From Rhodothermus marinus (lineage in GTDB: Bacteria; Bacteroidota; Rhodothermia; Rhodothermales; Rhodothermaceae): DNA of 64,000 bases. How positions within the stretch are numbered: position 1 is the stretch's first letter; each line of letters starts with the position of its first letter. Location of the stretch: the NCBI RefSeq assembly GCF_009936275.1, contig NZ_AP019797.1, positions 1,169,501 through 1,233,500 on the forward strand, read 5' to 3'. The notes under the pieces were generated by a model. The model had not been told where the DNA came from. It saw nothing but the letters and a program-made list of their open reading frames with translations, and ran no database searches. Below are positions 20,767 to 48,125 of the stretch, piece after piece. The position numbers were made by a program, and so were the translations under genes.

Positions 20767-23700
20767 TCAGTGCACCTTCAGGAAAGAGCGCACCTGATGC
20801 GTTCTGTCTGCTTCGAAGCGGACGAAGTATATGCCACTTGCCAGGGCCGACGCTTCCCACCGCAGTTCATGCCAGCCGGCCGGCAACTCGCCATCGACGA
20901 TGCGGGCTAACTCGCGTCCCAGCACGTCGTAGACGATCAGACGGACCCGACGTTGTCCGGGCAGGCCAATGCGGAAGGTTGTCCGTGTTGTAAAGGGATT
21001 GGGGTAGGGTCCCTCAAGGGTTGGATTTTCCGGTAGTCTATCCGGAGACGAAACGGCCACCGGGGAAGGACGAATCAAGTAGCGGATGCTGCTTTCGTTG
21101 TTTTCCAGACCGCGCACTTCGCCCGCTCGCATCCGAACCCAGGCTGTGACAACTCCGGTATCGGGTACGGTGGCTTCGATATCCAACCGGACGTGGGCTG
21201 AATCGCCAGGGCCCAAATTCGACCCGTCACAGGCCCATCGATCGGTCAATTGCACACAGGACCACCCTTCCGGAGGTGCAAGCTGGCGCACCGACAGGGA
21301 CGATGGGATCAACAGGTAGACGCGCAGCGCGTTGGCCGTGTCCGGTCCTTCATTGTAGACGATGAAGGACCACTCGCGGGATAGACCAACGGTGAGGGTA
21401 TCACTGAGAATGCCGGCCAGCAGTCCGACCTCTACCGAACGCGTAAACTCATGCACTACTTCCGGTGTGAGAATGGGCGGATTGTAATCGAAAACAATGC
21501 TGGCCCGGTTGCGAATGACGGTGCCTTCCTGTACCCCACGAGGACGTATCGAAAACGTAACAAAGCCCTCGCCTTCCGGAGGATTGACGTTAGGGGGCAG
21601 ATTGATTCCTTCGTAGGTGAAGGTCAGGACGTTTCCGTCAATCGAGACGGTCAGCAGCGAGTCATGGGAAGCACTCAGTAGCTGGAAAGAAGCAGGGTCC
21701 AGAAAAGCACTCAGCGTATCCCGGATAACCACACGCTCGGCAGGAGCGGTAGCTTCGGGACGGTTCTCAAATTGGATGGTGTAGACGATGGAGTCGGCCG
21801 CATTGGCGAGCGGTACGAAGTAACGTACGCAGCGTTGCTCTGTTTTGCCGTCGATTTCGACCGTGCCTACCTCGCAGGCATAGTTGGCAGAAGCCGTCGT
21901 CTTATCGTTGGGATCCCATGGGCCTCGAATATTGGGCTTGCTATCGCAGCGGTACGGCGGGCCATCGGGCAACGGCGTACAGGGAGGCTGATTGAGCACA
22001 TCCTTCTGACGCATGGCACATTCGGCCCACAGGGCTCCGAAACCATTGGTTGCTTTCAGACCCTGTGTTGTAAGTATTTCCAACTCATCATTGGGACTAA
22101 TATCGCCATCTTGATTGGCAGCGCGATAGCTGTCTACAACACTCTTGGCCTGATTTTTAAAATGTCTTTCAAATTCCTGACCGAAGGCATCGGCACAATC
22201 CGAAGCAGTCTGGACGACATTGATGGCGGGCAAGACACTACCTAAAGCACGCTCTTTAGCCTCGTCAATGATTTCACCGATGATCTGTTCAAGGTACCAC
22301 CAAGCGGTTGTTTTGGCCTGACCAAATAGCGATTGCTCTGCAGGTGGCAGTTGTTCCAGTACCTCGTCAACCGCTGCGTCGATGATCTCATTCCAGGAAG
22401 GTGGTGTCTCAGGCGGAAAGATAACCTGCCCCAGGGCTCCGCAGATATTTGCCGCGTTGAAAATTGCATCGACGGTTATTGCTTTCAGTTTTTTCCTGGA
22501 TATTTCCGCCAGCGCAGACTTGCTGAGGGTTACCTGTTTACCAAAGGGTAGCCGGAGTTTGATTTGATCCTTATCCTCATTGAGCGGGCGTTTCCCGGCT
22601 TGGGGTAGCTCCCAGATAATATACTGGGGATCAATCCCGACTACTACCGGAATTCTTATGATCTGCCAGGGACGCATTTTGAGTAGAATCATGGATTCGG
22701 TAGGATCATCCGGGTTGAGATGCACAAGCGGCCCGGCCTGGATGCGCACGGCCGGTGCGTCGATGGCGAATTTTAACAGATAGTAGGTTGGCCCCTGTGT
22801 GTAGTTGGTCGCATTGATCAGATCCAGATAGAAGGTGCGCGAGTAGGGAGGCGGCAAGATCGGAATGCCGACGATTCCGCTTTCACGCCAGACGGCTACC
22901 GACAGCGTAGGCCGTACAAAGACATTTAGCGTGTCCTTTCGGAAGCCAACCCGGTCCACAACGAGCCGTGCCGGACCGATGAAAGGCACATCGCTCAGAT
23001 CCAGGGAAATGGAGGCCACTTCGGCATCCAGCGGTGTAAATTGGCCCGTGATCAACGTATCGACATCAGGATCCTGAAGCAAGACGCGCACTGAATCACT
23101 CCACACACCACTGGCCAGTAACAGCTGATTTTCGGCAAAGGCGAACAGGCTGTCGGAAGAAATAAGGGTGATCGCTTCATAAGCCGTTCGATTGACCACC
23201 GTCAGGAGAAGGGCGGTCGGTGTAACAGTGGGCGTGAAGGTATAACGAGGACTCGAGCTGGTCAGATAGCCTATCTGTCCGGATAAACTACCGGTCAGAC
23301 TGGTGGCGAGGGTATACTGCTGACCTACCGTAAGTTGAAGCGTGTCCGGCAGCAGTATTTCGACTATGGGGCGGTCGAGTTGAAGGGCTCGTGTGGCGAC
23401 CAGCATCGGAAGCTGGCCGGTCGCGTCGAAACGTCCCCGCAAACGGCTACCGGTTTCAAAAACTACCAGAGGAGCATCCAGCGTCAGCCCGCTTTCGATC
23501 ACACCACCATTGAACACGCGGATTTCCTGAGCAGCTGTAAGCGAAGACAGACCGACGATCGTTCCGTTTTCCTGAATGTGAATGCGCTGTACCCGCAGTA
23601 AATTACCACCCAGGCTGACGTTGCCTGCGATGATCAATGTCTGCAGGTTTAGCGATCCAAAAGCCTGAATGTGCCCACCCTTCCATGTCAGATCACTGTA

Positions 23701-25038
23701 GACGTGGACTTGGCTTTGACCGCTGACGGAGAGCGTGTCGCCGAGCAGTTCAAAGCGCAGCAGTTGGCGATTGTAGTAGCCGACGAGCCAGGAGCGGCCG
23801 TTGGAGAGGTTGACATGCCAGCGGCCGTAGTTCTGGATGGTGGAAGTGGGTTGATTGTCATTGGAGACGAGCCACCAGATATCGTTGTTGCCCTGGAGCG
23901 TGGTGGAGCCGTAGTTGGTGTAGCTGCCGCCGCTGGCGAAATACCAGGTGCTGGGGAAGAGCTCGACGCTGCCGTAGTTGATCAGTTGGCCGGCGATGGT
24001 GACGTCGCCGGAGGGAGTGTAGAGTCGGCCGCGGTTGAGGAGGCGTCCGGCCAGGCGGGCGCCGTTGCCGAGGCCGAAGCCGTTGCCCTGGAAGTTGAGG
24101 ACGGCGCCCCGGGTGGAGTCGGCCGAGGTGAGCGTGCCGCCCCACTGGCCGAAGAAGCCGCTGCCCTGGACGAAGGCTTCGACCGAGTCGGCGACGATGG
24201 TGGTGCCGCGCAGGTAGAACGCGTTGAGCGAGTCGATGCGGAAGACGGGCTGGTTTTGCAGCAGGGCCAGGCTGAAGACGTGGACTTGGCTTCGGCCGCT
24301 GACGGAGAGCGTGTCGCCGAGCAGTTCAAAGCGCAGCAGGTGGGGGCGGTAGTAGCCGACGAGCCAGGAGCGGCCGTTGGAGAGGTTGACATGCCAGCGG
24401 CCGTAGTTCTGGATGGTGGAAGTGGGTTGATTGTCATTGGAGACGAGCCACCAGATATCGTTGTTGCCCTGGAGCGTGGTGGAGCCGTAGTTGGTGTAGC
24501 TGCCGCCGCTGGCGAAATACCAGGTGCTGGGGAAGAGTTCGACGCTGCCGTAGTTGATCAGTTGGCCGGCGATGGTGACGTCGCCGGAGGGAGTGTAGAG
24601 TCGGCCGCGGTTGACAAAATATCCACTTCCTGCAATACGCCCCCCGTTGCCAAAAAGCACTTCGCCCCGTACGACGAACGAATCTGCCAGCACTGCTACC
24701 ACGCTCCCCGACCCGAAAAGCAGTCGGGAGCCTTCGGCCATTGATCCACCTTGCTGAAGCGTAAGGGTGTAGTTGCGCAGGTCAAACGTATTATCACGCC
24801 CCACGATCAGCTTGCCGACCGTGACACTTGAGGTCAACCAGACATCAAAAATGCGATCTGGCGGACGGTCTGGAATGAAAGCAATATCATCAGGCCCTGG
24901 AACTCCTTCGGGATCCCAGTTGGAAGCGAGGTTCCAGTTACCCGAGCCGCCTTCTCCGGTGAAGGTGTAGAAGGTCTGGGCCTGCAGCGTCTGCGCTGTA
25001 GCCACGAATACCAGAAACCCGAACAGCAGCCGTTTCAT
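20767..25038 (-). CDS. Giant T9SS-secreted repeat protein
   Basis: About 1423 residues. Signal peptide 1-21 (MKRLLFGFLVFVATAQ), start at 25038 chosen for it; an ATG at 25050 is also in frame. The N-terminal third, from NWNLASNWDPEGVPGPDD onward, reads as a right-handed beta-helix of autotransporter/adhesin type and contains two near-identical units of about 113 residues. A central part (about 790-1010) has no recognised fold. About 1060-1220 contains a WDPNDK motif and the PPNVNPPEGEGFVTFSI segment shared with the 1544-residue protein at 43491. A DUF11-like Ig repeat follows, and the end is a type A T9SS sorting domain (PYPNPFTTRTTFRI ... LASGIYFVRF). It is likely a cell-surface adhesin or released protein. 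Its promoter carries the shared dyad operator. Confidence 0.88.
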   Translation of the reverse strand: MKRLLFGFLVFVATAQTLQAQTFYTFTGEGGSGNWNLASNWDPEGVPGPDDIAFIPDRPPDRIFDVWLTSSVTVGKLIVGRDNTFDLRNYTLTLQQGGSMAEGSRLLFGSGSVVAVLADSFVVRGEVLFGNGGRIAGSGYFVNRGRLYTPSGDVTIAGQLINYGSVELFPSTWYFASGGSYTNYGSTTLQGNNDIWWLVSNDNQPTSTIQNYGRWHVNLSNGRSWLVGYYRPHLLRFELLGDTLSVSGRSQVHVFSLALLQNQPVFRIDSLNAFYLRGTTIVADSVEAFVQGSGFFGQWGGTLTSADSTRGAVLNFQGNGFGLGNGARLAGRLLNRGRLYTPSGDVTIAGQLINYGSVELFPSTWYFASGGSYTNYGSTTLQGNNDIWWLVSNDNQPTSTIQNYGRWHVNLSNGRSWLVGYYNRQLLRFELLGDTLSVSGQSQVHVYSDLTWKGGHIQAFGSLNLQTLIIAGNVSLGGNLLRVQRIHIQENGTIVGLSSLTAAQEIRVFNGGVIESGLTLDAPLVVFETGSRLRGRFDATGQLPMLVATRALQLDRPIVEILLPDTLQLTVGQQYTLATSLTGSLSGQIGYLTSSSPRYTFTPTVTPTALLLTVVNRTAYEAITLISSDSLFAFAENQLLLASGVWSDSVRVLLQDPDVDTLITGQFTPLDAEVASISLDLSDVPFIGPARLVVDRVGFRKDTLNVFVRPTLSVAVWRESGIVGIPILPPPYSRTFYLDLINATNYTQGPTYYLLKFAIDAPAVRIQAGPLVHLNPDDPTESMILLKMRPWQIIRIPVVVGIDPQYIIWELPQAGKRPLNEDKDQIKLRLPFGKQVTLSKSALAEISRKKLKAITVDAIFNAANICGALGQVIFPPETPPSWNEIIDAAVDEVLEQLPPAEQSLFGQAKTTAWWYLEQIIGEIIDEAKERALGSVLPAINVVQTASDCADAFGQEFERHFKNQAKSVVDSYRAANQDGDISPNDELEILTTQGLKATNGFGALWAECAMRQKDVLNQPPCTPLPDGPPYRCDSKPNIRGPWDPNDKTTASANYACEVGTVEIDGKTEQRCVRYFVPLANAADSIVYTIQFENRPEATAPAERVVIRDTLSAFLDPASFQLLSASHDSLLTVSIDGNVLTFTYEGINLPPNVNPPEGEGFVTFSIRPRGVQEGTVIRNRASIVFDYNPPILTPEVVHEFTRSVEVGLLAGILSDTLTVGLSREWSFIVYNEGPDTANALRVYLLIPSSLSVRQLAPPEGWSCVQLTDRWACDGSNLGPGDSAHVRLDIEATVPDTGVVTAWVRMRAGEVRGLENNESSIRYLIRPSPVAVSSPDRLPENPTLEGPYPNPFTTRTTFRIGLPGQRRVRLIVYDVLGRELARIVDGELPAGWHELRWEASALASGIYFVRFEADRTHQVRSFLKVH
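23701..24038. repeat. 338-bp direct repeat, copy 1
   Basis: Nearly identical to 24277-24614; I see only a handful of differences (for example CTTTGACC versus CTTCGGCC near the start). The offset of 576 bp is exactly 192 codons, so the repeats stay in frame in the beta-helix region of the large T9SS gene. Confidence 0.92.
24277..24614. repeat. 338-bp direct repeat, copy 2
   Basis: Second copy of the in-frame repeat in the large T9SS gene, encoding about 113 residues starting with the GRLYTPSGDVTIAGQ tract. The low divergence implies recent duplication or ongoing gene conversion. Confidence 0.92.
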
Positions 25039-25073
25039 GGTCGGAAACATGATGGTCCGGAAACTGGCTGATT

Positions 25074-25119
25074 TAGATAAATCGCGGCCGCTTCCTCGTC
25101 AATCACCCGTTCGGGTGAT
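25074..25119 (-). promoter_or_regulatory. Dyad operator and promoter (site A) of the large T9SS gene
   Basis: Read on the minus strand: ATCACCC-GAAC-GGGTGAT (25119-25102), -35 TTGACG (25102-25097, sharing the last T of the dyad), 17 bp, -10 TATCTA (25079-25074). The start codon at 25038 is 35 nt further on. The two half-sites are a perfect inverted repeat. This is one of five equally arranged sites in the window. Confidence 0.8.
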
Positions 25120-25146: not shown

Positions 25147-26148
25147 TCATTCCCAGAGCACGGTCCGGGTCAGCTGCCGGGAGCCCAGTTTCAGGCGGAG
25201 CAGGTAGAGGCCGGCGGGCCAGACGCCCCGCGGAATGGCGAGTTGATGCGTGCCCGGCGGGTAGGGCCGCGGAGGCGCCTCATAAACCGGGCGTCCCAGC
25301 AGATCGTAGAGCGTCAGGGAGACGGTAGCCGGTGTCTGCAATGGAAAGGCTATATGGAGCACTTCCTTTGCCGGATGGGGGTAAAGCGCAAGGGGCGGTG
25401 TTTCTTCGGCGAGGGGCTCGACGGATACCGGATTGAGCGAAGAACCCTCTGCATGGACCTGAAACAGCAACACGTCGAGCCAGCGCATGTATTCGGTGTG
25501 GGTAACGATCGCGGCGTATTTCAGATCGGGTTTGTCGTGATGATAGACCACCAGGTAGAGGGAAAGCGTCGAAGAACTGCTTGTGTAGGGATAGCCGGGT
25601 TCGTTGGCAATGCCGTCCCGGTCGGGATCGAAGTCCACCAGCGCGCGCTGTAGCTGTTGGGGACCGAGATTGATGGGATAGATCGGATCGGCCAGCCAGA
25701 CGATCCAGGGCGTCTGCTGCCCTGGATCATAGGGGCAGTAAAATAGATACAGCGGCCAGGCATAGAGGAATGGATCGTAAAAACTACACCCTCCGAAGGG
25801 GGCGGCACCTTGACAGTAACTTTGATGCATAGCATCCCACGACTCTCGGATGAAGCGACACTCCGTGTCGACATACAGCCCCGTAGGGATGGTGGTGTAG
25901 GCATTGTTGACAATGCGGGGGACGTAGAGTTCATAAGCCTGTTTCTGACTGTTCCACTGGAGTTGCATCCAGGTAAAGGGTACCGAACCATACTGCTTAC
26001 AGTTGTAGGGTTGTCCATCCTCTGTCAGCTGGCAATTGTAACTCCCTTCTTTCACTTGGACCCGATAGAGGGTTCGATTAAGCGGAAGGGATTGCGCCTG
26101 AAGCAGCAGCGGCCATAGCCCTGCCAGTAATAGCCAGCCCCGGTTCAT
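25147..26148 (-). CDS. Cysteine-containing T9SS-secreted protein of unknown function
   Basis: 333 residues with signal peptide 1-19 (MNRGWLLLAGLWPLLLQAQ); the ATG at 26148 was chosen over one 30 nt upstream for this reason. The mature part (20-240) has six or more Cys (YNCQL, YNCKQY, DTECRF, SYCQG, GGCSF, FYCPYD), unusual among its neighbours and compatible with disulfides outside the cell. It is rich in Tyr, Trp and Pro and contains DFDPDRDGIANEPG, a possible calcium loop. The C-terminus is a T9SS type A sorting domain (LYPHPAKEVLHIAF, LYDLLGRPVYE, LPAGLYLLRL-like). No known family was recognised in the main body. It lies directly downstream of the NarL regulator gene and has its own dyad promoter. 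Confidence 0.8.
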   Translation of the reverse strand: MNRGWLLLAGLWPLLLQAQSLPLNRTLYRVQVKEGSYNCQLTEDGQPYNCKQYGSVPFTWMQLQWNSQKQAYELYVPRIVNNAYTTIPTGLYVDTECRFIRESWDAMHQSYCQGAAPFGGCSFYDPFLYAWPLYLFYCPYDPGQQTPWIVWLADPIYPINLGPQQLQRALVDFDPDRDGIANEPGYPYTSSSSTLSLYLVVYHHDKPDLKYAAIVTHTEYMRWLDVLLFQVHAEGSSLNPVSVEPLAEETPPLALYPHPAKEVLHIAFPLQTPATVSLTLYDLLGRPVYEAPPRPYPPGTHQLAIPRGVWPAGLYLLRLKLGSRQLTRTVLWE

Positions 26149-26178
26149 GGCAGGAAGTGACTGGTTCGCGTCTGACAC

Positions 26179-26224
26179 AAGTTATTCAGAGTAGCATCGG
26201 GAGAAAATCACCCGTTTGGAGTAT
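26179..26224 (-). promoter_or_regulatory. Dyad operator and promoter (site C) of the 333-residue T9SS gene
   Basis: Minus strand: ATACTCC-AAAC-GGGTGAT (26224-26207), a degenerate distal half but a perfect proximal half; -35 position reads TTTTCT (26207-26202, weak); 17 bp; -10 TAACTT (26184-26179). The start codon at 26148 is 30 nt downstream. The proximal half-site overlaps the stop codon of the regulator gene. The weak -35 would make it strongly activator dependent. Confidence 0.65.
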
Positions 26225-26852
26225 GTCGGCCGTATCGGAGAAAGCGGGCGGCCGCCTCGGTGCGGTTGTGGACCTGCAGCTTACGGTAGATGTGGCGGAT
26301 GTGCGTGCGGACGGTCTCGGCGCTGATCTTCAGGCGTTCGGCGATTTCGGCATTGGAAAATCCTTCGGAAAGCAGCTGCAAAATTTCCTGCTCGCGTGAG
26401 GTCAGGGTACGCAGCGCATTGGCCGGAGCCAGCTCTTCCCGAAACAGCTCCAGCACCCGACGGGCTATCCCGGCCGACATCCACGAAGCCCCCTGACGGA
26501 CGGTTCGGATGGCCTTGAGCAGTAGTTCGGGCAGATCGCGCTTGACTAAATAACCGGAAGCCCCGGCCAGGATGGCTTCCAGGATGTGCCGGTCGTCGTC
26601 GAAGACGGTCAGCACCAGAAACTCGGTACGGGGGAGCACTTCGCGTAGACTTCGGATCAGCTCCAGTCCTGAACCGTCAGGCAGGCCGATGTCGACAAGC
26701 ACGACGTCCGGGCGCAGTTGAGGGAGGGATTTCAGCGCGGCCTGCACTTCATTGAAGCGCCCCACCAGGACGAGGTCGTCGCTTGTCTCCAGCAGGAAAG
26801 TAACCGTGTCCTGCACGATCGTTTCGTCCTCGACCAGTGCCACCCGGATCAT
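26208..26852 (-). CDS. NarL/LuxR-type response regulator
   Basis: A 214-residue two-component regulator. Receiver domain 1-120 with EDE at 8-10, phospho-acceptor D54 in VVLVDIGLPDGSGLEL and K104. LuxR-type helix-turn-helix 149-205 (LTSREQEILQLLSEG, NAEIAERL, recognition helix SAETVRTHIRHIYRKL at 177-192). Members of this family bind inverted repeats of about 7 bp as dimers, which matches the dyads described in this window. It lies 48 bp downstream of the propeller kinase gene and has its own dyad promoter overlapping the kinase stop codon, pointing to autoregulation. Likely target genes are the T9SS genes here; this is inference. Confidence 0.94.
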   Translation of the reverse strand: MIRVALVEDETIVQDTVTFLLETSDDLVLVGRFNEVQAALKSLPQLRPDVVLVDIGLPDGSGLELIRSLREVLPRTEFLVLTVFDDDRHILEAILAGASGYLVKRDLPELLLKAIRTVRQGASWMSAGIARRVLELFREELAPANALRTLTSREQEILQLLSEGFSNAEIAERLKISAETVRTHIRHIYRKLQVHNRTEAAARFLRYGRHTPNG

Positions 26853-26875
26853 GAGCGCTCCATTATTTTTGCGGC

Positions 26876-26921
26876 ATGGTACAGGCTGGACCCGGGTCTG
26901 TCAATCCCCCGTTCGGGGGAT
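26876..26921 (-). promoter_or_regulatory. Dyad operator and promoter (site B) of the NarL-type regulator
   Basis: Minus strand: ATCCCCC-GAAC-GGGGGAT (26921-26904), perfect inverted repeat; -35 TTGACA (26904-26899), exact consensus; 17 bp; -10 TACCAT (26881-26876). The start codon at 26852 is 23 nt further on. The -35 contains the TGA stop of the kinase gene, so the operator lies in the last codons of that gene. It allows the regulator to be made independently of the kinase. Confidence 0.78.
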
Positions 26922-29768
26922 GGGAAGGTCGAGGCACAGGCAGGTACCGCGTCCGGGCCGGGTGTCGATTGCCAGCGTGCCCTGCAGGCGGGCGGTTCGT
27001 TCCTGCATGTAGCGCAGCCCGCGGTGAGAGACGGTAGCCGGGTCGAATCCCCGACCGTCGTCGCAGAGGCGGAGCCTCAGGTGGTGGTCGGTCAGCTGAA
27101 CCGCCAGGGTAACGGTGTGGGCCTGTGCATGCTGAAGTACGTTACGCATGCCTTCGCGTACGATGCAGACGATGTGGTGTCGCCGTTCGGCATCGATGGG
27201 CAGGTCGGGTAGGTGATCAGGCAGTGTGAAGCGTGTCTGCAGGCCGCCCGCTTCGGCCATCTGGTGAACCGTTTCGCGCAAGTAGCCGATCAATACGGGC
27301 AGGCGGTCGTTTTCCGGGTTGGTCGTCCAGAGCAGCAGCCGGAGCTGGTCGATGGCCGTGCGAGCCAGCTCGGCAGCCTGGCGCAGACGCCCCGACAGGG
27401 CTTCGCCACGCTGCTGACGCGCCGGTAGCGTGTGCAGCAGAAAATACAGGCTTGTGAGCGTGGCGCCGACCTCGTCGTGGAGATCCCGGCTGAGCCGGCG
27501 ACGCTCCTGCTCGAGCACCTGACGCGCCAGCAGCAGGCGTCGGTAGCGCTCCGAAAGGATGAAAAAGGTCAGGCCTCCGGTAAGACCCAGGGCCAGCAGC
27601 AACAGGCTTACTCGAAAACCTGTGGTCTCCCATAGATGAGGCCGGGCTATGAGGTGGATCGGCTCGGCCAGACGCCCGACCTGTCCATCGGGACCGATAG
27701 CCTCTACCGTGATTCGGTAGGTGCCCGGCGTCAGGTTACTGAGCACAAGCTGAGTGCTTGTTCCGAGATCGAGCGTTTGCCGACGCTCACCATCCATCAG
27801 GATGCGATAGCGCACGCCCTCCGGAAACGACAGGAACAATCCGCGGAAAACCAGGCCGATCGCACGCTCCCCGGGAGGCAGCACAATCGGGCGACCGTCG
27901 AACGGGGTTGCCACCAGCCGGGCCTCCCGGGCGCGAAGTACCGAAAGCATCACGGGGGCAGGAGCAAATGGATAGGGGCGAATCGTTCGGGGATCGAACC
28001 AGACCACGCCATGCGTGCCCCCGAAATACAACCGACCGGCACGATCTTTATAATAAGCACCCCGGTTGAATTCGGTGGCCCCCAGCCCTTCGGCGGTTGT
28101 ATACGTGCGAAAACGCAGCCGGGGCAGACTATCGGTAAAAACTCGTACAAGTCCCCGGTTGGTGCTCAGCCAGAGGCTGCGGTCGTCGGCCAGCAGGCCG
28201 TAGATGGTGCGCGAGGGCAAACCATCCGCTTCGTCCCAGTGCAGCCAGCGCGTACCCTGCCGTAGCCAGAGTCCCCGGCTGGTGCCGAGCCAGTGTCCCC
28301 TGGCGTTACGATACTGGCTCCAGGCCACTGTGGGCGCGGGCAGCGATTCGCGTCGTGCTTCGACCGACCTGCCTTCGTCATTCAGGACGAGGCGTAACAG
28401 GCCGTCTTGCAGCCCGACCCAGAGCGTGTCGCCATCGCGAAGGAGGCTCCGGACAGGGGCATCGGCTTCATAGAGAAGTTGCGGGGCGTCATTCTGGATG
28501 CGGTAGATCTGGCCGGTATAGCTTCCTGCCCAGAGCGCAGCTCCATCGGTCAGCAGAGCGGTGAAGGTATTCGGGCCGGGCGTGCGTACTTCAGGGGACG
28601 CCGGTAAAAGCTGTCGCGGGCATTCCAGACAGAATAGCCCCTGATCTGTGCCGATCCAGTGGTGTCCATGCGCATCTTCGGCAAGGACCCAGACGAAAGG
28701 ATTGGGGAGAAACACCTGACGTTCGAGACGCCAGTCCTGCTCCTGAAGACGAAAAACAAACAAACCGCCCCCGATCGTTCCCACCCACAGGTGACCGGCG
28801 CGATCCTGCAGAATGGCCGACACGTAGCCACTTTCGAGGCCCTGCGCACGACCGATCAGGCGAAAAGACGGACGCCAGGGATCCCAGACGTAGACGCCCC
28901 CGACGGTTCCTACCCAGATACGTCCCTGTCGATCGCCCGCCAACGAGAGCACATAGCGCGTAAGCTGGGTACGATAGGGGAACGGAATCAGAAGTTGCTG
29001 CAGCTTGCCCGGTTGTATCCGGACAAACACACCGGACCGGGTAGCCAGCCACAGACGCCCATAAAGATCCAGAGCCACATCGTTTATCGGGGCTGAAAAA
29101 GGGATTCGTTCCAGCGGGGTGAGCCGGCAGGTGCCCTGCACCTGATAGGCACTCAGCGTATCGCGTTGCTGCAGCCAGAGCCGTCCCCTTCTGTCGGCAA
29201 GCAGTAGATTGGTGGCAACGACGGCGGGACGCACTGCCTTCGAATCGGCAAGGCACCACAGCGTATCGTTTCGGATCCACCAGATTTGTTGCTGTGCATC
29301 GACCTTCCAGACAGGAGGCGGTTCTGAAGCCGGCTCGTTGCACGCCGGCTGCATGTTTGGCACGTACGGACGCGGTCCACAGGCCGTCCAGATCCAGGGG
29401 GAACCGTCGGGAGCTATTGCGAGAGATGAGTAAGGCGTAATGATGAACGAATCACGTTGTGCCGTACGCAGAAGTAGATTTGAACCTGCCTGGACCCACA
29501 CGTTCTGAAACCGATCAACCGTCAGCTTTAAAGCCGTGATGGGATATTCGGTCCCTTCAGGCAGGTAGTAGCTTTTCCAGGAGCGGACCGACACACCATC
29601 CCAGCGGGCAATGCCTTCCAGCGTACTCATCCAGATAAAGCCCACGCTGTCGGCTGCCAGGCTGTAGACGGAAAGCTGGGGCAACTTCCCTTCAAGGGGT
29701 ACTTCCTGGAGTTGCAACGTATCCGGCGCAAACCCCATCCACAGCAATAGCAGTACGCCAGGGCCCAT
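26901..29768 (-). CDS. Sensor histidine kinase with periplasmic beta-propeller (Reg_prop/Y_Y_Y type)
   Basis: About 955 residues. Signal-like N-terminus MGPGVLLLLWMGF, start 29768 chosen for it. About 25-600 is a large periplasmic region of propeller repeats with the typical two-component regulator propeller pattern (LAGDRQGRIWVGTVGGVYVW, ILQDRAGHLWVGTIGGGLFV, LAEDAHGHHWIGTDQGLF), forming two seven-bladed propellers in relatives. A Y_Y_Y Ig-like domain lies at about 640-715, then one transmembrane helix near 725-745. The HisKA_3 domain has H764 in RRRLSRDLHDEVGATL, and HATPase_c has GMRNVLQHAQAH and CDDGRGFDP. Unlike the Bacteroides hybrid regulators, it has no receiver or AraC domain, so the NarL regulator downstream is the expected partner. 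It may sense a polysaccharide or other surface ligand; the ligand is unknown. Confidence 0.92.
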   Translation of the reverse strand: MGPGVLLLLWMGFAPDTLQLQEVPLEGKLPQLSVYSLAADSVGFIWMSTLEGIARWDGVSVRSWKSYYLPEGTEYPITALKLTVDRFQNVWVQAGSNLLLRTAQRDSFIITPYSSLAIAPDGSPWIWTACGPRPYVPNMQPACNEPASEPPPVWKVDAQQQIWWIRNDTLWCLADSKAVRPAVVATNLLLADRRGRLWLQQRDTLSAYQVQGTCRLTPLERIPFSAPINDVALDLYGRLWLATRSGVFVRIQPGKLQQLLIPFPYRTQLTRYVLSLAGDRQGRIWVGTVGGVYVWDPWRPSFRLIGRAQGLESGYVSAILQDRAGHLWVGTIGGGLFVFRLQEQDWRLERQVFLPNPFVWVLAEDAHGHHWIGTDQGLFCLECPRQLLPASPEVRTPGPNTFTALLTDGAALWAGSYTGQIYRIQNDAPQLLYEADAPVRSLLRDGDTLWVGLQDGLLRLVLNDEGRSVEARRESLPAPTVAWSQYRNARGHWLGTSRGLWLRQGTRWLHWDEADGLPSRTIYGLLADDRSLWLSTNRGLVRVFTDSLPRLRFRTYTTAEGLGATEFNRGAYYKDRAGRLYFGGTHGVVWFDPRTIRPYPFAPAPVMLSVLRAREARLVATPFDGRPIVLPPGERAIGLVFRGLFLSFPEGVRYRILMDGERRQTLDLGTSTQLVLSNLTPGTYRITVEAIGPDGQVGRLAEPIHLIARPHLWETTGFRVSLLLLALGLTGGLTFFILSERYRRLLLARQVLEQERRRLSRDLHDEVGATLTSLYFLLHTLPARQQRGEALSGRLRQAAELARTAIDQLRLLLWTTNPENDRLPVLIGYLRETVHQMAEAGGLQTRFTLPDHLPDLPIDAERRHHIVCIVREGMRNVLQHAQAHTVTLAVQLTDHHLRLRLCDDGRGFDPATVSHRGLRYMQERTARLQGTLAIDTRPGRGTCLCLDLPIPRTGD

Positions 29769-42300: not shown

Positions 42301-42777
42301 CAAGTGGGTATAACCCAGCGCGTCCCGACTGACATCCTGCAGGCGTAATTCTTCGCGCGGGTTCTCCAGCCCGAACAGTCGGCGATGACGCTGGAGAAAG
42401 TCCATGACCTGTCGAGATACATCCTGTGCGCGCTTACCGGCCACTTGGTCCAGGCGACCGCTCATCCAGCGAACGGTGCCATTGGGAGCGCGGTGAATTG
42501 TTGGCCCCTCCAGTTGTTGCAAACGGACTGGCTTTTTGCCCGGCAGCGTACGAAACGTCAGCCGACCAACCGGGCGGCCGTAGCGGAGTAGCGAACCACG
42601 CGGCTGCGCGAGTAGCTGCTGGAGTTGTTGCGAGGTTTCGATAAGCGGAAAGTCCAGCCGTTCGGGCAGCGGCGGCAACGGACGTCCATCGCGTAGCGAT
42701 TTCTGGGCCGTAGCCTGCAGGGGAAGTACCAGAAGCAGCAGGGCCCCTGCCAGAAAAGAGCATCGTGTGCGCTTCAT
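39310..42777 (-). CDS. T9SS-secreted thermolysin-family (M4) metalloprotease with PKD domain
   Basis: 1155 residues. Signal peptide 1-24; FTP and PepSY-type propeptide about 50-230 (inhibits and folds the enzyme); M4 catalytic domain about 290-640 with zinc ligands H472 and H476 and general base E473 in VHEMAHGV, third ligand E496 in GALNESFADVF, and DNGGVHINSGIPNRA for the transition-state His. A beta-propeller-like region follows (about 655-1000), then PKD about 1010-1085 (FDASGSSDPDGDALNFRWDFGDG) and a T9SS sorting domain (LYPQPARRFLSLHV, LASGLYQLEL). The protease should be exported, matured and left on the surface or released. Its ATG overlaps the stop of the upstream lipoprotein gene by 4 bp. 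Confidence 0.94.
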   Translation of the reverse strand: MKRTRCSFLAGALLLLVLPLQATAQKSLRDGRPLPPLPERLDFPLIETSQQLQQLLAQPRGSLLRYGRPVGRLTFRTLPGKKPVRLQQLEGPTIHRAPNGTVRWMSGRLDQVAGKRAQDVSRQVMDFLQRHRRLFGLENPREELRLQDVSRDALGYTHLRFEQRYRGYPVWAAELRVHVDAGGQIYAVNGTYEPTPSGPSAPTPWLTAAEAYEQAAADLRRKGRWQPPGPALRDALGLDEQPPQLVWYRHQESGWRLAYEVDIRPNWVERYTYLIDAQTGQILHTFANYCTLRPTEPGAIPDAPEIAYTPLPSLQGQFVDAQAQDVLGNTRTLRVYYDPASGYFMIWDLPSLDLSGSRLPDSPKGGAIVLNAGNRDLNQNTNLIPVSSSNNTWSDPVAVSAHWNHYQAFTFFHTQFGRNAIDGQGGTILSVIHVTDGGRPMDNAFWNGRVMAYGDGDREFLPLAGNPDVGVHEMAHGVIEHTANLVYQFQSGALNESFADVFAALATGDFLMGEGIVRPETGKQALRDLKNPGGDHVLSRQPAHMSEYRNLDINQDNGGVHINSGIPNRAAAHIIEQIGSEKGARIYYRALSQYLTRNSQFGDLRKAVEQATKDLYGEGTELQVVRQAFDMVGITPEVGQGGDQGNDIPAPQVQSSLIFFVLWDPWFYQYEGEIGLIDMTDPNNVQLGVIDVVQARFTQYDDGSLDVAQLSGTRDGSSLWFVNPEGYLTAIDLNSGEIYEFDFYLDQPGDLWNASISPDGGIAAIVSAHENDATLYFWDGETVYQLPLEPTSTMYVKVKTIAYPDVVNWSPNPAVPRIVFDALNRIQLGGRPFSYWSAYEVDFSSDQIYTLLPAQEPTISIGNPIYYPLNPDLLAFNLVVNDTIDVVLADYEQGKLLVAGFPERTKGVVIDPLRPCFSPDGNFLMVTSPRNGWILLDDGQQLGYLSVSETFSAIPFNAVWLGQLGPSRQNRPPVASLQTDTTVGLAPLTVTFDASGSSDPDGDALNFRWDFGDGATGSGPRLTHTFQTPGQYMVRLTVVDAWGAVAYDSVAIEVRQAFTEAERAEVVPATFTLRALYPQPARRFLSLHVGSPEAGPIRLRLYDLTGRLVWQETHEVTRGWQRLHLQLPTLASGLYQLELQQQSHVIRRALVIDRN

Positions 42778-43181
42778 GGCTGCCGGACATTCTGGTTTAG
42801 CATTTCATAGAGCATCTGAAGCGTGCGCGTGACCGCATGGGTATCGGATGGACTCCAGACCCATTGCGCTGTGTCGCGGGACGTATATCGGCGGATAAAG
42901 CGACTGTAATTGCCGGGGGAGTTGTAAGCCGGGAGTGTCTGTAATTGTCTGTAGACTGCTTCGATCTGTTGTCGTTGTGTTCGACGCAGTTTGCCCCGGG
43001 TTCGGGTTTGAGGAGGATCCCCCGGGCTCTGGCGCCACATTTCGATGGTGCCGTCACGCCAGACGGTGTAGCCCTGTTGCAGCCCGGTAAAGCCGCCGCC
43101 CTCTCCCCAGGAAAGCCAGGGCTTCGTGCTGCGACAGGAACTGGTGCTCAGCAGAAGCACGAGCAAAAGTAATCTGCACAT
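42774..43181 (-). CDS. Small lipoprotein resembling emfourin-type M4 protease inhibitors
   Basis: 135 residues. Lipobox LLLSTSSC with the Cys at 16, so the mature protein is lipid-anchored. The mature part has GEGGGFTGLQQGYTVWRDG followed by a strand and a helix-rich half with QRQQIEAVYRQLQTLP, then QWVWSP and a C-terminal helix TRTLQMLYEMLN. The opening GGFxG with short beta strands and the central helix match what I recall of emfourin (protealysin inhibitor), a family found beside M4 protease genes. Here the stop overlaps the M4 protease start (ATGA), so both are made together. Inhibition of the neighbouring protease is inference from resemblance and coupling. The ATG at 43181 was chosen over an upstream open frame because of the lipobox. 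Confidence 0.72.
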   Translation of the reverse strand: MCRLLLLVLLLSTSSCRSTKPWLSWGEGGGFTGLQQGYTVWRDGTIEMWRQSPGDPPQTRTRGKLRRTQRQQIEAVYRQLQTLPAYNSPGNYSRFIRRYTSRDTAQWVWSPSDTHAVTRTLQMLYEMLNQNVRQP

Positions 43182-43229
43182 CGGTTCGTGGAATCTGAAG
43201 ACAATTTCATCGCCCGGCAACCGCAACGA

Positions 43230-43275
43230 AAGGTAACCACGGTGTTCTGGCATCACAATCACCCGTTCGGGGGAG
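43230..43275 (-). promoter_or_regulatory. Dyad operator and promoter (site D) of the lipoprotein-M4 protease operon
   Basis: Minus strand: CTCCCCC-GAAC-GGGTGAT (43275-43258), one mismatch in the distal half; -35 TTGTGA (43258-43253); 17 bp; -10 TACCTT (43235-43230). The start codon at 43181 is 48 nt downstream. Confidence 0.73.
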
Positions 43276-43409: not shown

Positions 43410-43455
43410 ATCCCCCGTTCGGGTGATTGACGGCGCAAGTGCAGGTTGCTAAAGT
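43410..43455 (+). promoter_or_regulatory. Dyad operator and promoter (site E) of the 1544-residue T9SS gene
   Basis: Plus strand: ATCCCCC-GTTC-GGGTGAT (43410-43427); -35 TTGACG (43427-43432); 17 bp; -10 TAAAGT (43450-43455). The start codon at 43491 lies 35 nt downstream, the same distance as in site A. Sites D and E face away from each other within the 309-bp gap (43182-43490), which otherwise holds no gene. Confidence 0.8.
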
Positions 43456-43490: not shown

Positions 43491-46400
43491 ATGAAGATGG
43501 ATCAAGCGGGCACAGTAGTGCACAAAATTTGCGCAAAAAGGATCATTGGGCTGGCACTGATAGCGATCGCCGCCGCCGGCGCCCTTAACACAGGGGTTGG
43601 TTATACGCCAGCATCTTTTCTGGAAGAAAAAGCGTCAGGCATAGCGGTTGCAGGTGCCCATCAGGATCGTGTGATTGGAGGACAGCTGTTTTCCGCAGGC
43701 GGCGAAGTGCAGGTAGAGGTTGCTCCAGCAGGCATCGCCTTCTACACCAGTGAGTTGTGGCTTTTTGAACCTGGGCCGCCTCAGTTTATTGCCACCAATC
43801 GTGATGCAGGCCTTGTCGTTAATCTGGGGCCATTCGACCCTGGTGTGGAATTGGTGTTTGGAATTGTCGTTCGAGAGACGGGGTGGACTTTCAAAATGGG
43901 TCCTGGAGAACGCAATCCTGACGGGATTCCGCATGCAGCTGTAGAATTCATAGCCGAAGGCGAAGCGATCGTAGGTTTTGAGGATCTATACGGAGGTGGA
44001 GATCGAGATTATGACGATGTGGTTTTCATCTTTCGGGGAAGTATTGTTCCAGAACAATGTGGAAATGGAGTAGACGATGACCGTGATGGTTTGATAGATT
44101 GCGAGGATGCTGATTGTGCTGGCGTTGGAGAATGTGGAGAGAACTGTGAAAATAATCGCGACGATGATGGGGATGGCCTCGTGGACTGTCTGGATGCAGA
44201 CTGTTTCAGAGGTTGTGCCGGAATTGGACGTTGTCGAAATTGGCCCCGAATCACAAGTTTGTTCCCGATACAGGGTGCTAATATAGGTTCAGTCACTGTA
44301 ACGCTCGGTTGTTGTAACGTCCAGGAGGGAGCTTCTATCTATCTGGATGGTCCGGGTGGAGAAATACCTGGTCAGAATCTTGGAATCTTTTCTACTGAAG
44401 GTTCCAGTACCGTACAGATCTCTTTTGATTTAAGGGGAAAACTACCTGGTGTATATGATATCCACGTTAACAATCCAGATACAACGTACACGTTTTTGCG
44501 AGGGGCCTTCACCATTACCCAAGGAAGTGGTCGCACAGCAACTCCCTGGTTAGATGTCGCTAGCCGAGAAGTATTCCGTATGGGGAGGGCGCAGCGTATT
44601 AACATCTTCTACGGGAACAGCGGGACGGTCGATACAAGCGCCAAGTTGATTTTTCTGAGCGTTTCGGGGGATGAACAGGCCTGGTTACAAACAGACGTGT
44701 TCGACATCCCACGATCGGAGCTTGTTCTGCTTGCAGGGTCTCTGATGGGTGAGGCGCTTTCTCTGGGAGCAGGTCAGTCATGGACCTTACCCGTTATTGT
44801 GGAAGCGCCCAATATGCCTGGTGAACTGGAACTACAGGCCCGTATGTTTGAAGTTTCAGGGAGCAATTTTCCCTGGGAAGCACTCCCCCCACCACGAGCG
44901 GTTTCGCCAGAAACGTGGCAGAAGGCTCGATACTTATTACAGCAAATGGCTGGTAGTTCATGGGATAGTGTATTGCAGTTTCTATTGCGATCTCGCGGGC
45001 AAGGTAAACCACTGGAGGTCGATAAAGCACTGGCCTTTGCTTCTGTTGCCGCTGTATGGTCTGTCCTGTTGGATGACACTCTGAGCGCCCCCAAAACATT
45101 GTCTTTTCATAGTGCCATTTCTGATATCGAGATCGAGTATCTCTCTACCAGAGAAAGCGGTTTGGGTATTTATGCGGTAGGATCCATTACGGAAAATCCA
45201 AGCCGAGCTGTTATTATAACACATGGCCTCGGTGGCATGGATATTAATAATCCAGAAGACCGATTCGTGAAATTAGGTGTTGCAGTGAAACAGCAGTGTC
45301 CTGATTGTAATGTGTTTATTCTCAACTGGACACCTTTAGCTACAATCAGTTCAATTAATGGATGGAAAACGGATCCATGGTGGGTAGGAGCAAACGGCAT
45401 TCCGCCAGCTGCTAGTTTACTTCGAAATGACCTGCGGAATAGTGGATTTGGTGGGTTGGGTGGTAATGTTCTGGGAGTGGACTTTAAAGAGGCCGGATAT
45501 ATCCCGCCTGATCGGACTATAATGATTGGTGAAAGCTTTGGAAATAAAATAAATGAGATTTTAATTGATGAATATTTGGGATCCGTATCACGTGTGCTTG
45601 CCTGTAACCCGGCTAGCGAAGGCAGTTTGGTTGACCCTCCAAACTTCTTAGGAAAGGCTGATCTGTCTGTTGGTTTTCATACTTTCAGCCTCTTTGATAC
45701 GCAGCAACCAGTTGCTCAATTCGATTTGCTATTGCAGACAAGAGAAGGTATGGATGATGTTGGCGAGCACACTTTCGGAGTTGTTCAACTGGGCAATTGG
45801 GTGGCTTCTGGGGATGTGCGCTGGTTGTTTGGCTCTCCAGAAGAACTGGGACTCTCGGGGCTTACCCGAAACGTTTATAAAGGGTATGAAGGGTTTGTTC
45901 GGCTTGATGGGCTCGTAGAAGAATTACCTTCACCTCTGCCCTCTGAGACCTTATTTATTGCACCCTATGCTTATGCTGCTCTTAAACAAGCATATGAGGA
46001 TGAAATCAAAAGAAAAGTGCGAAGGGTGCGTGTTGTAGGCAGCATGGATCCCAACGATAAAGCCGGTCCACTCGTAGCGTCTCCAGGCGAACCCCTGGCT
46101 TATACGATATTTTTCGAAAACCTTGAGACGGCAACAGCCCCAGCTCAGGAAGTGGTTATTGAGGATCAACTTGATCCGGAGCACATGGATCTGCGCACTT
46201 TTGCGCTGGGTCCTATCATGTTCGGGCGCTGGTCTGCGACACCGCCACCTGGAGCGAAAAGCTATAGTACCACGCTGGATCTTCGTCCAGACCAGCCTCT
46301 ACTTGTGCAAATAGAGGCTGGTCTGGATACCGTTACGGCGCGGGTAACGTGGCGGCTAACGTCCATAGATCCAGAAACGGGGGAGCTGCCTAAGGATCCT

Positions 46401-48125
46401 TTTGCGGGATTTTTGCCGCCCAATGTTCGTCCTCCTGAAGGTGATGGGAGCGTATCGTTTACAATAGCGCCACGCACTTTGCTTCTGACGGATTGGCATA
46501 CCTGTAATAACGCTCGGATCGTATTCGATCAGAATCCAGCGATAGAAACGCCTGTAATATGCACCCAACCGCCTGAATTTGGCTTTACGCTTTCGCCTCC
46601 GAATCCGACCCATCTGCACATTATGCAGGGCGGTATGCAGAACTTCCAGATTACGCTTACCCCGAAGAATGGTTTTTCAGGAATCGTGAGCCTGATGCTA
46701 GTAGATCAAAGTGGCAGGAGAGTGCCGGGTATTACGATCATCAGTACCAATCCCGCGCCTGTACAGGTGCTTACTGATTCGATAGTGGTTTCTGCAACGG
46801 TGATGGCGGCATCCGATATAACTCCGGGCACCTACAATCTACAAATACAGGCTATTTCAGGCAGTATCGCTCGCTGGCAACCCCTTACAGTTATGGTAAC
46901 TGAGCGAGCTCGAAGATTCCAGGTTACCCGCAACGATGATGCTACGGACGCCACCCTTGGGGACGGCATCTGCGCGGACGGTAACGGTGCTTGTTCGCTG
47001 CGTGCGGCGGTAATGGAAGCGAATGCCCTGGGCGGGGGACCTCACACTATTGTGCTACAGGCGGGGCAGGCCTATAACCTGTCGCTGGATGCAGCAGTGG
47101 GAGAGGAAAACGGAGCAGCTGAGGATGATCTGGACATCATTGCAGATATCATCATTCAGGGCAACGGGGCGACGGTGCAGCGCGACCTGTCGCTGACCTG
47201 TAACGCCAACAGCCAAACCGAAACGGGCGAATTCCGCATCTTCGATGTCCAGAGCGGAGGCCGTCTTACGTTGCAAAATGTGACAGTACGAAATGGCTGT
47301 GCAGATGGCGTCTCCTCAGGGGGCGGCATCCGCAATGCGGGCCGAGTGATCATAACCAATAGTACCTTTGCGGATAATGTGGGCGGCGGAGCTCTCTACA
47401 ATGAGGGAGGGACCATATACGCCAGTTTCGTTACCATTGTGAACAACAGCGGAGGTGTAATCCAAAATGGGCCGGAATCAACCGTCCAAGTCAAAAACTC
47501 AATCATAGCTAACAACATAGCAAGCAACTGCTCGGGCTCGGGTACGCTGAACGCTTTCGGTGTTAACTTCGCCACCGACAGTTCATGCGGTTCAGACTTT
47601 ACGGTGGTCAGCGCCGATGAACTTAACCTGCAGCCGCTTGCTAACGACGACGGCTTCGCTTCGATCTTCCTCCTTGGCCCAAGCAGCGCGGCCGTTGACG
47701 CAGTAACAGACTGTACGGACCTTGACAACAACCTGGTGACTATGGACCAGCGGGGGATGACTCGTCCCCAGGGGAATGCCTGCGATGCTGGCGCAGTAGA
47801 GCGTGAAGTGCCTGTAGCTATCGAAGAGCTAAAGCTGCCGACCACGCTGGCTTTCTATGGGCATTATCCGAATCCAGTGCGTTCTGATTACGTGGTGTTG
47901 GTGCTGGATTTGCCCGTGAGTGCGCAAGCGCAGGTGGTGCTGTATGATGTTTTAGGTCGACAGGTTCGTCGCTGGTCTTTGGCTGCGTTGTCGGCTGGCG
48001 CACGGCGTCAGGTACCGCTGTATTTAGGGTCCCTGGCGGTCGGTTTATACATCTATCAGGTGCAGCTTCGGCTCGACTCTGGAAAAACGCAAAGCTTTCA
48101 GGGAAGACTGGTAAAACTGGAATAA
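43491..48125 (+). CDS. Mosaic T9SS-secreted protein with lipase-like alpha/beta-hydrolase domain
   Basis: 1544 residues. N-terminal membrane segment about 18-38 acts as signal. DUF4114-like domain about 55-185 (GGGDRDYDDVVFIF), two calcium-loop/MopE-like repeats (CGNGVDDDRDGLIDC), an IPT/TIG-like domain about 250-345, then an alpha/beta-hydrolase-like part about 540-760 with ITHGLGG (oxyanion) and a G-x-S-x-G nucleophile elbow MIGESFGNK (S682). About 845-1025 carries a SMDPNDK motif and PPNVRPPEGDGSVSFTI segment shared with the protein at 20767. Then an Ig-like region, a parallel beta-helix opened by CSLRAAVMEANALGG, and a T9SS sorting domain (YPNPVRSDYVVLVL, VGLYIYQVQL). Codons from about 43640 to 46900 are notably A/T-rich, suggesting transfer of the middle part. 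Confidence 0.88.
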   Translation: MKMDQAGTVVHKICAKRIIGLALIAIAAAGALNTGVGYTPASFLEEKASGIAVAGAHQDRVIGGQLFSAGGEVQVEVAPAGIAFYTSELWLFEPGPPQFIATNRDAGLVVNLGPFDPGVELVFGIVVRETGWTFKMGPGERNPDGIPHAAVEFIAEGEAIVGFEDLYGGGDRDYDDVVFIFRGSIVPEQCGNGVDDDRDGLIDCEDADCAGVGECGENCENNRDDDGDGLVDCLDADCFRGCAGIGRCRNWPRITSLFPIQGANIGSVTVTLGCCNVQEGASIYLDGPGGEIPGQNLGIFSTEGSSTVQISFDLRGKLPGVYDIHVNNPDTTYTFLRGAFTITQGSGRTATPWLDVASREVFRMGRAQRINIFYGNSGTVDTSAKLIFLSVSGDEQAWLQTDVFDIPRSELVLLAGSLMGEALSLGAGQSWTLPVIVEAPNMPGELELQARMFEVSGSNFPWEALPPPRAVSPETWQKARYLLQQMAGSSWDSVLQFLLRSRGQGKPLEVDKALAFASVAAVWSVLLDDTLSAPKTLSFHSAISDIEIEYLSTRESGLGIYAVGSITENPSRAVIITHGLGGMDINNPEDRFVKLGVAVKQQCPDCNVFILNWTPLATISSINGWKTDPWWVGANGIPPAASLLRNDLRNSGFGGLGGNVLGVDFKEAGYIPPDRTIMIGESFGNKINEILIDEYLGSVSRVLACNPASEGSLVDPPNFLGKADLSVGFHTFSLFDTQQPVAQFDLLLQTREGMDDVGEHTFGVVQLGNWVASGDVRWLFGSPEELGLSGLTRNVYKGYEGFVRLDGLVEELPSPLPSETLFIAPYAYAALKQAYEDEIKRKVRRVRVVGSMDPNDKAGPLVASPGEPLAYTIFFENLETATAPAQEVVIEDQLDPEHMDLRTFALGPIMFGRWSATPPPGAKSYSTTLDLRPDQPLLVQIEAGLDTVTARVTWRLTSIDPETGELPKDPFAGFLPPNVRPPEGDGSVSFTIAPRTLLLTDWHTCNNARIVFDQNPAIETPVICTQPPEFGFTLSPPNPTHLHIMQGGMQNFQITLTPKNGFSGIVSLMLVDQSGRRVPGITIISTNPAPVQVLTDSIVVSATVMAASDITPGTYNLQIQAISGSIARWQPLTVMVTERARRFQVTRNDDATDATLGDGICADGNGACSLRAAVMEANALGGGPHTIVLQAGQAYNLSLDAAVGEENGAAEDDLDIIADIIIQGNGATVQRDLSLTCNANSQTETGEFRIFDVQSGGRLTLQNVTVRNGCADGVSSGGGIRNAGRVIITNSTFADNVGGGALYNEGGTIYASFVTIVNNSGGVIQNGPESTVQVKNSIIANNIASNCSGSGTLNAFGVNFATDSSCGSDFTVVSADELNLQPLANDDGFASIFLLGPSSAAVDAVTDCTDLDNNLVTMDQRGMTRPQGNACDAGAVEREVPVAIEELKLPTTLAFYGHYPNPVRSDYVVLVLDLPVSAQAQVVLYDVLGRQVRRWSLAALSAGARRQVPLYLGSLAVGLYIYQVQLRLDSGKTQSFQGRLVKLE

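Follow-up and report, generated by a model that had tools for sequence, protein, structure and literature searches.

A predicted operator and promoter inside the 3' end of a sensor kinase gene of Rhodothermus marinus suggest autoregulation of the adjacent response regulator and a small regulon of exported proteins

The window analyzed here, which is the whole stretch of 64 kb corresponding to positions 1169501-1233500 of the single-contig 3.43-Mb genome of R. marinus (hereafter G000), carries on its minus strand, in this order, genes for a sensor kinase, a NarL/LuxR-type response regulator, a 343-aa protein, and a 1427-aa protein. The features discussed below are, in window coordinates:

26901-29768, minus: sensor kinase with signal peptide, regulator-propeller repeats, Y_Y_Y, HisKA_3, and HATPase_c (Pfam; start inferred)
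26904-26921, minus: predicted operator dyad (sequence, pattern search, conservation in six genomes)
26899-26904, minus: -35 element TTGACA (sequence and promoter scan)
26876-26881, minus: -10 element TACCAT, 17-bp spacer (promoter scan)
26858-26861, minus: GGAG, a likely ribosome-binding site some 5 nt upstream of the regulator ATG (sequence and inference)
26208-26852, minus: response regulator of 214 aa, receiver (D54, K104) and LuxR/NarL-type helix-turn-helix (Pfam)
26207-26224, minus: second site, half degenerate (TACTCCAAACGGGTGA-TT), over the regulator gene end; promoter of the 343-aa gene (profile E = 3e-5)
25147-26178, minus: predicted target, exported protein of 343 aa; sorting domain at the C terminus (Por_Secre_tail, below gathering cut-off)
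25102-25119, minus: perfect dyad and TTGACG-17-TATCTA preceding the 1427-aa gene (pattern and profile search)
20767-25050, minus: predicted target, 1427-aa exported protein with DUF7619/DUF11 and sorting tail (Pfam)
43258-43275, minus: site before a lipoprotein-like gene of about 160 aa (pattern and profile search)
42774-43256, minus: predicted target, this lipoprotein-like gene (162 aa), downstream of the 43258 site
43410-43427, plus: site before the 1544-aa gene, TTGACG-17-TAAAGT (pattern and profile search)
43491-48125, plus: predicted target, 1544-aa exported protein with DUF4114, DUF7619, and sorting tail (Pfam)

The domain set of the kinase is that of a propeller-type sensor histidine kinase: Reg_prop, HisKA_3, and HATPase_c pass their Pfam cut-offs, with Y_Y_Y (23 bits) falling under its cut-off of 26.6. 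We place its start at the ATG near 29768 rather than at GTG 29984, because the signal peptide supports the former; the frame listed from GTG 29984 overlaps a divergent universal-stress-type gene. The regulator has the features of the NarL/LuxR type (Response_reg, 2.9e-20; GerE, 2e-22), and its phospho-acceptor Asp (D54) and switch Lys (K104) are unchanged across 11 orthologs.

At the kinase-regulator junction, the minus strand from 26921 to 26904 reads ATCCCCCGAACGGGGGAT. This sequence (Site B) is an 18-bp inverted repeat, ATCCCCCG-AA-CGGGGGAT, with 8-bp arms around a 2-nt centre, only the central AA being non-self-complementary, and its last base (26904) is the first T of TTGACA. The initial annotation had described a perfect dyad and a consensus TTGACA here, and its sequence and coordinates are exact, base for base. 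The junction reads ATCCCCCGAACGGGGGATTGACA, followed by TACCAT at 17-bp spacing and then by 23 nt up to the regulator ATG, which predicts a transcript leader of about 17 nt. In a promoter scan, TTGACA-17-TACCAT (26904-26876) matched sigma-70-type hexamers at 10 of 12 positions, with a spacing inside the 16-18 bp range; it was the sole promoter-like match in 26000-27200, for which shuffled sequence gave 0.3 ± 0.6, and no intrinsic terminator (stem-loop followed by a T-run) was found. The description of Site B as having the best-matching promoter has to be shared, however: counted by eye, TTGACG-17-TAAAAT at genome position 1686288 likewise reaches 10 of 12. Relative to the predicted promoter, the 16-bp dyad core (26905-26920) lies at about -51 to -36. 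It abuts the -35 element, and its centre, near -43.5, is close to the class II position (near -41.5).

Site B belongs to a small family. Four matches to the dyad pattern lie in the window, as compared with 0.013 expected per 64 kb from a 10-Mb first-order simulation, and the dyad followed by TTG was absent from the 10 Mb of simulated sequence. Six sites scored E < 1e-4 in a profile search of the genome, and the next matches came only at about 0.01-0.02; those used to build the profile match by construction, and what carries information is the lack of any other match in the genome. The match at E = 0.011 is the 25102 site again, read on its reverse strand. A seventh candidate (E = 0.02; genome position 1323852), lying in front of a nusG-like gene, was dropped for its mismatched far arm, and a pattern made of a half-site and the promoter was uninformative by itself (333 matches, against 368 for the reversed control). 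All six sites share the dyad (C/G-rich consensus TCMCCCG-NN-CGGGKGA) and the promoter spacing, and each lies just upstream of a gene start: the regulator (26904), the 343-aa (26207), 1427-aa (25102), ~160-aa (43258), and 1544-aa (43410) proteins, and a gene of at least 1570 codons (genome position 1686288). The last base of the dyad core directly precedes TTG in every case; this TTG side always faces the gene, and the far arm has no mirrored TTG.

The five sites other than that of the regulator, four of them inside the window, precede genes for exported proteins, whose products begin by eye with a signal-peptide-like or lipoprotein-like stretch. The Por_Secre tails of several suggest type IX secretion cargo. 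In G001, another genome of the genus, six exact sites precede the regulator, the orthologs of the 343-aa (66% identical), 1427-aa (61% over the part compared), 162-aa (51%), and 1686-kb (59%) targets, and a 1312-aa exported protein. The 162-aa gene occupies a different genome place in G001, and the 162-aa and 1686-kb ortholog pairs, both far from the regulator, keep the site all the same. In G002-G005 the gene that follows the regulator encodes instead a giant exported protein (with VWD and fn3 domains in G003); a 343-aa-like gene with its own site is found elsewhere in G003, and probably in G004 too. The divergent sites at 43258 and 43410 are about 150 bp apart, and the G+C content of the adjoining region goes down to 47%.

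Orthologs of the regulator (62-73% identical) were identified in five of the six other genomes of the genus (G001-G005). In all five, the end of the kinase gene contains the dyad and ATTGAC, 69-78 nt upstream of the regulator ATG; at this place ATTGAC is unchanged in each of the six genomes with the regulator (these five and G000). When the regulator sites of these genomes are aligned, 17 of 21 columns are invariant (by eye), versus about 1 of 60 in the leader that follows the site. TA stands at the 17-bp -10 spacing in five of the six promoters, the exception being G004. In the remaining genome, G006, there is neither an exact site nor a regulator ortholog (best match 38%, the level of paralogs), so that the co-occurrence of site and regulator inside the genus rests on one absence. 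A search of 113 genomes of the order with the strict pattern gave 19 exact matches in the six genomes that have an ortholog and none in G006. The 106 others yielded two, G025:C1:1986536 and G068:C5:227871, the second of which is a perfect palindrome. The six genomes with an ortholog lack such a dyad upstream of the kinase within the stretches examined.

The initial annotation had further proposed that Site B covers the last kinase codons and that the TGA stop is part of the -35 element. This is what we find in R. marinus, where the kinase frame ends in PIPRTGD and its stop (26903-26901) lies within TTGACA. As a device, the arrangement fares less well, being absent from the five congeners: their kinases read the dyad in another frame, as SPDRGID in G002-G005, with the end of the kinase 14-29 nt beyond the dyad, and as SPNRVID in G001, with the end 11 nt beyond it. 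The DNA of the dyad is therefore kept while the reading frame across it differs between species, indicating that selection acts on the DNA. Within the genus, the stop inside the -35 would thus be mostly incidental rather than a conserved device. At the other end of the regulator gene, the TGA stop falls within the next dyad (26207-26224), as it does within a second dyad preceding the next gene in all five congeners. In R. marinus this second site has lost its far arm (TACTCCA), and a better dyad is kept at the orthologous place in the congeners.

Beyond the genus, five genomes of two other families encode regulators 46-48% identical to that of R. marinus and preceded by diverged dyads (e.g., ATCACCCTTCCATGTGATTGAC), three of which keep the same length and the same junction to TTGAC (GATTGAC). 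At the locus L103, kinase and regulator genes are separated by a cargo-like gene, and the kinase gene does not extend over the site. Dyad-like sites are also seen just 3' of the distant regulators of L103 (9320-9337) and L105 (9601-9618), reading ATCACCCTTTCATGTGATT and TCACCCGTAGATGTGATT on the opposite strand; judging from these sequences, the two sites may face the other way. More distant homologs of the regulator across phyla were mostly NarL-type relatives without the dyad. The stop codon overlap recurs in one Acidobacteria MAG (L129; WGCW01000158.1, 4912-5636), in which the junction reads ATCCCCCCTTTGGGGGATTGA, the kinase ends in IPPLGD with its stop in TTGA, and a second dyad spans the stop of the regulator, a double overlap like that of the R. 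marinus locus. Transfer, a binning error, and deep ancestry are all possible sources of this similarity in a distant lineage. One may speculate, although we would bet against it, that kinase, regulator, and exported-protein genes form a widespread chained module, in which the last codons of each gene would be the operator-promoter of the next and would thereby dictate the protein tails (IPxxGD-stop, NPPNG-stop).

We consider it probable that a dimer of the regulator binds the dyad and activates the exported-protein genes together with the regulator's own promoter inside the kinase 3' end. The kinase would phosphorylate the adjacent NarL-type regulator, whose dimer would sit on a dyad of 16-18 bp at about -43.5, upstream of the -35 hexamer and touching it; phosphorylation control and the transcription start site are both putative. 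Activation of the internal promoter would yield more regulator and no extra kinase, the latter staying under its own promoter, and the common operator-promoter unit would drive at least five exported-protein genes. It had been suggested from Site B that the regulator is produced from its own activated promoter with the kinase at basal level, giving positive feedback. Autoregulation is well supported by the comparisons above: the regulator promoter carries the same operator as the likely targets, as in autoregulated two-component systems, and this operator lies over the kinase end, is kept in six of six genomes, and persists in diverged form beyond them. The lack of a dyad before the kinase fits a kinase at basal level. 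Two elements of the proposal are more conjectural. That the regulator itself is the protein binding the dyad is suggested by conservation and co-occurrence. As to the positive sign, the only argument is the position of the site: the dyad centre is near the class II position, as is the lux box of a LuxR-type activator, centred at -42.5 (PMC3376562), and we therefore infer positive autoregulation. A promoter strongly dependent on an activator would not need a consensus TTGACA, and because this hexamer is the consensus, basal activity may be substantial; transcription from the kinase promoter may also read through into the regulator.

The sign is where the main rival lies. By covering the -35 element, the regulator might repress both its own gene and the genes for the exported proteins, with the signal lifting or imposing repression. 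The dyad does touch a near-consensus -35, so the promoter could fire unaided, and the geometry is identical at all sites, so one sign would apply throughout. Yet the core is centred upstream of the hexamer and leaves the interval from -35 to -10 and the start uncovered, and LuxR/NarL-type regulators at the class II position are mostly activators, all of which makes repression rather unlikely. We regard as still less plausible that a different transcription factor binds the dyad and has the local two-component regulator among its targets. Other response regulators are indeed encoded in G000 (27 matches to this regulator), but the sites cluster around this regulator and follow its presence across the order, and the diverged dyad accompanies its orthologs into other families.

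The remaining explanations dispense with a DNA-binding protein. An RNA hairpin, terminating or attenuating transcription of one bicistronic unit at the kinase-regulator junction, would draw on the transcript of Site B, which would fold as a 7-bp hairpin (-12.9 kcal/mol). We rejected it as very improbable: there is no T-run or terminator-like site, the sites at 26207, L103, and L105 fold at only -2, -3.8, and -1.2 kcal/mol yet retain their position, and the dyad is always upstream of a promoter-like TTG, including before unlinked genes. Hardly any weight can be given to conservation of the C-terminal peptide of the kinase, or to chance. In G001-G005 the site is indeed translated within the kinase frame as S-P-D/N-R-G/V-I-D, but in G000 the same DNA is read in a different frame, which rules out conservation at the protein level, and the same dyad lies outside the kinase, upstream of the genes at 25102, 43258, and 43410; chance is countered by the simulated expectation for the window.

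Neither autoregulation of a two-component system nor the placement of a promoter inside the upstream gene is new in kind. The response-regulator promoter is autoregulated in two-component systems such as PhoP/PhoQ; the R. marinus regulator would likewise control its own gene through the operator of its targets, with the difference that its promoter, inside the kinase 3' end, would be for the regulator only, and feedback would raise the regulator and not the kinase. The resemblance to LuxR and the lux box includes a LuxR-type helix-turn-helix and an inverted repeat of about 20 bp beside the -35 at nearly the same distance, whereas here the protein is of the NarL type with a phospho-receiver and the dyad is C/G-rich. 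The regulator-propeller/Y_Y_Y sensor systems of Bacteroidota, which include the hybrid HTCS, similarly join a periplasmic propeller and Y_Y_Y sensor to a kinase and a DNA-binding output; in HTCS these are parts of one hybrid protein with an AraC-type output, whereas here a HisKA_3 kinase and a NarL-type regulator are separate. In the open papers searched, we found no description of the operator, its regulon, or its conservation, nor a map of transcription start sites for Rhodothermus.

These data provide a concrete candidate operator, a predicted regulon of exported proteins that is small and conserved, and a putative feedback circuit in a thermophile lineage in which little regulation has been described. 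Moreover, they illustrate that the frame in which the end of a gene is read can change while a regulatory site within it persists.
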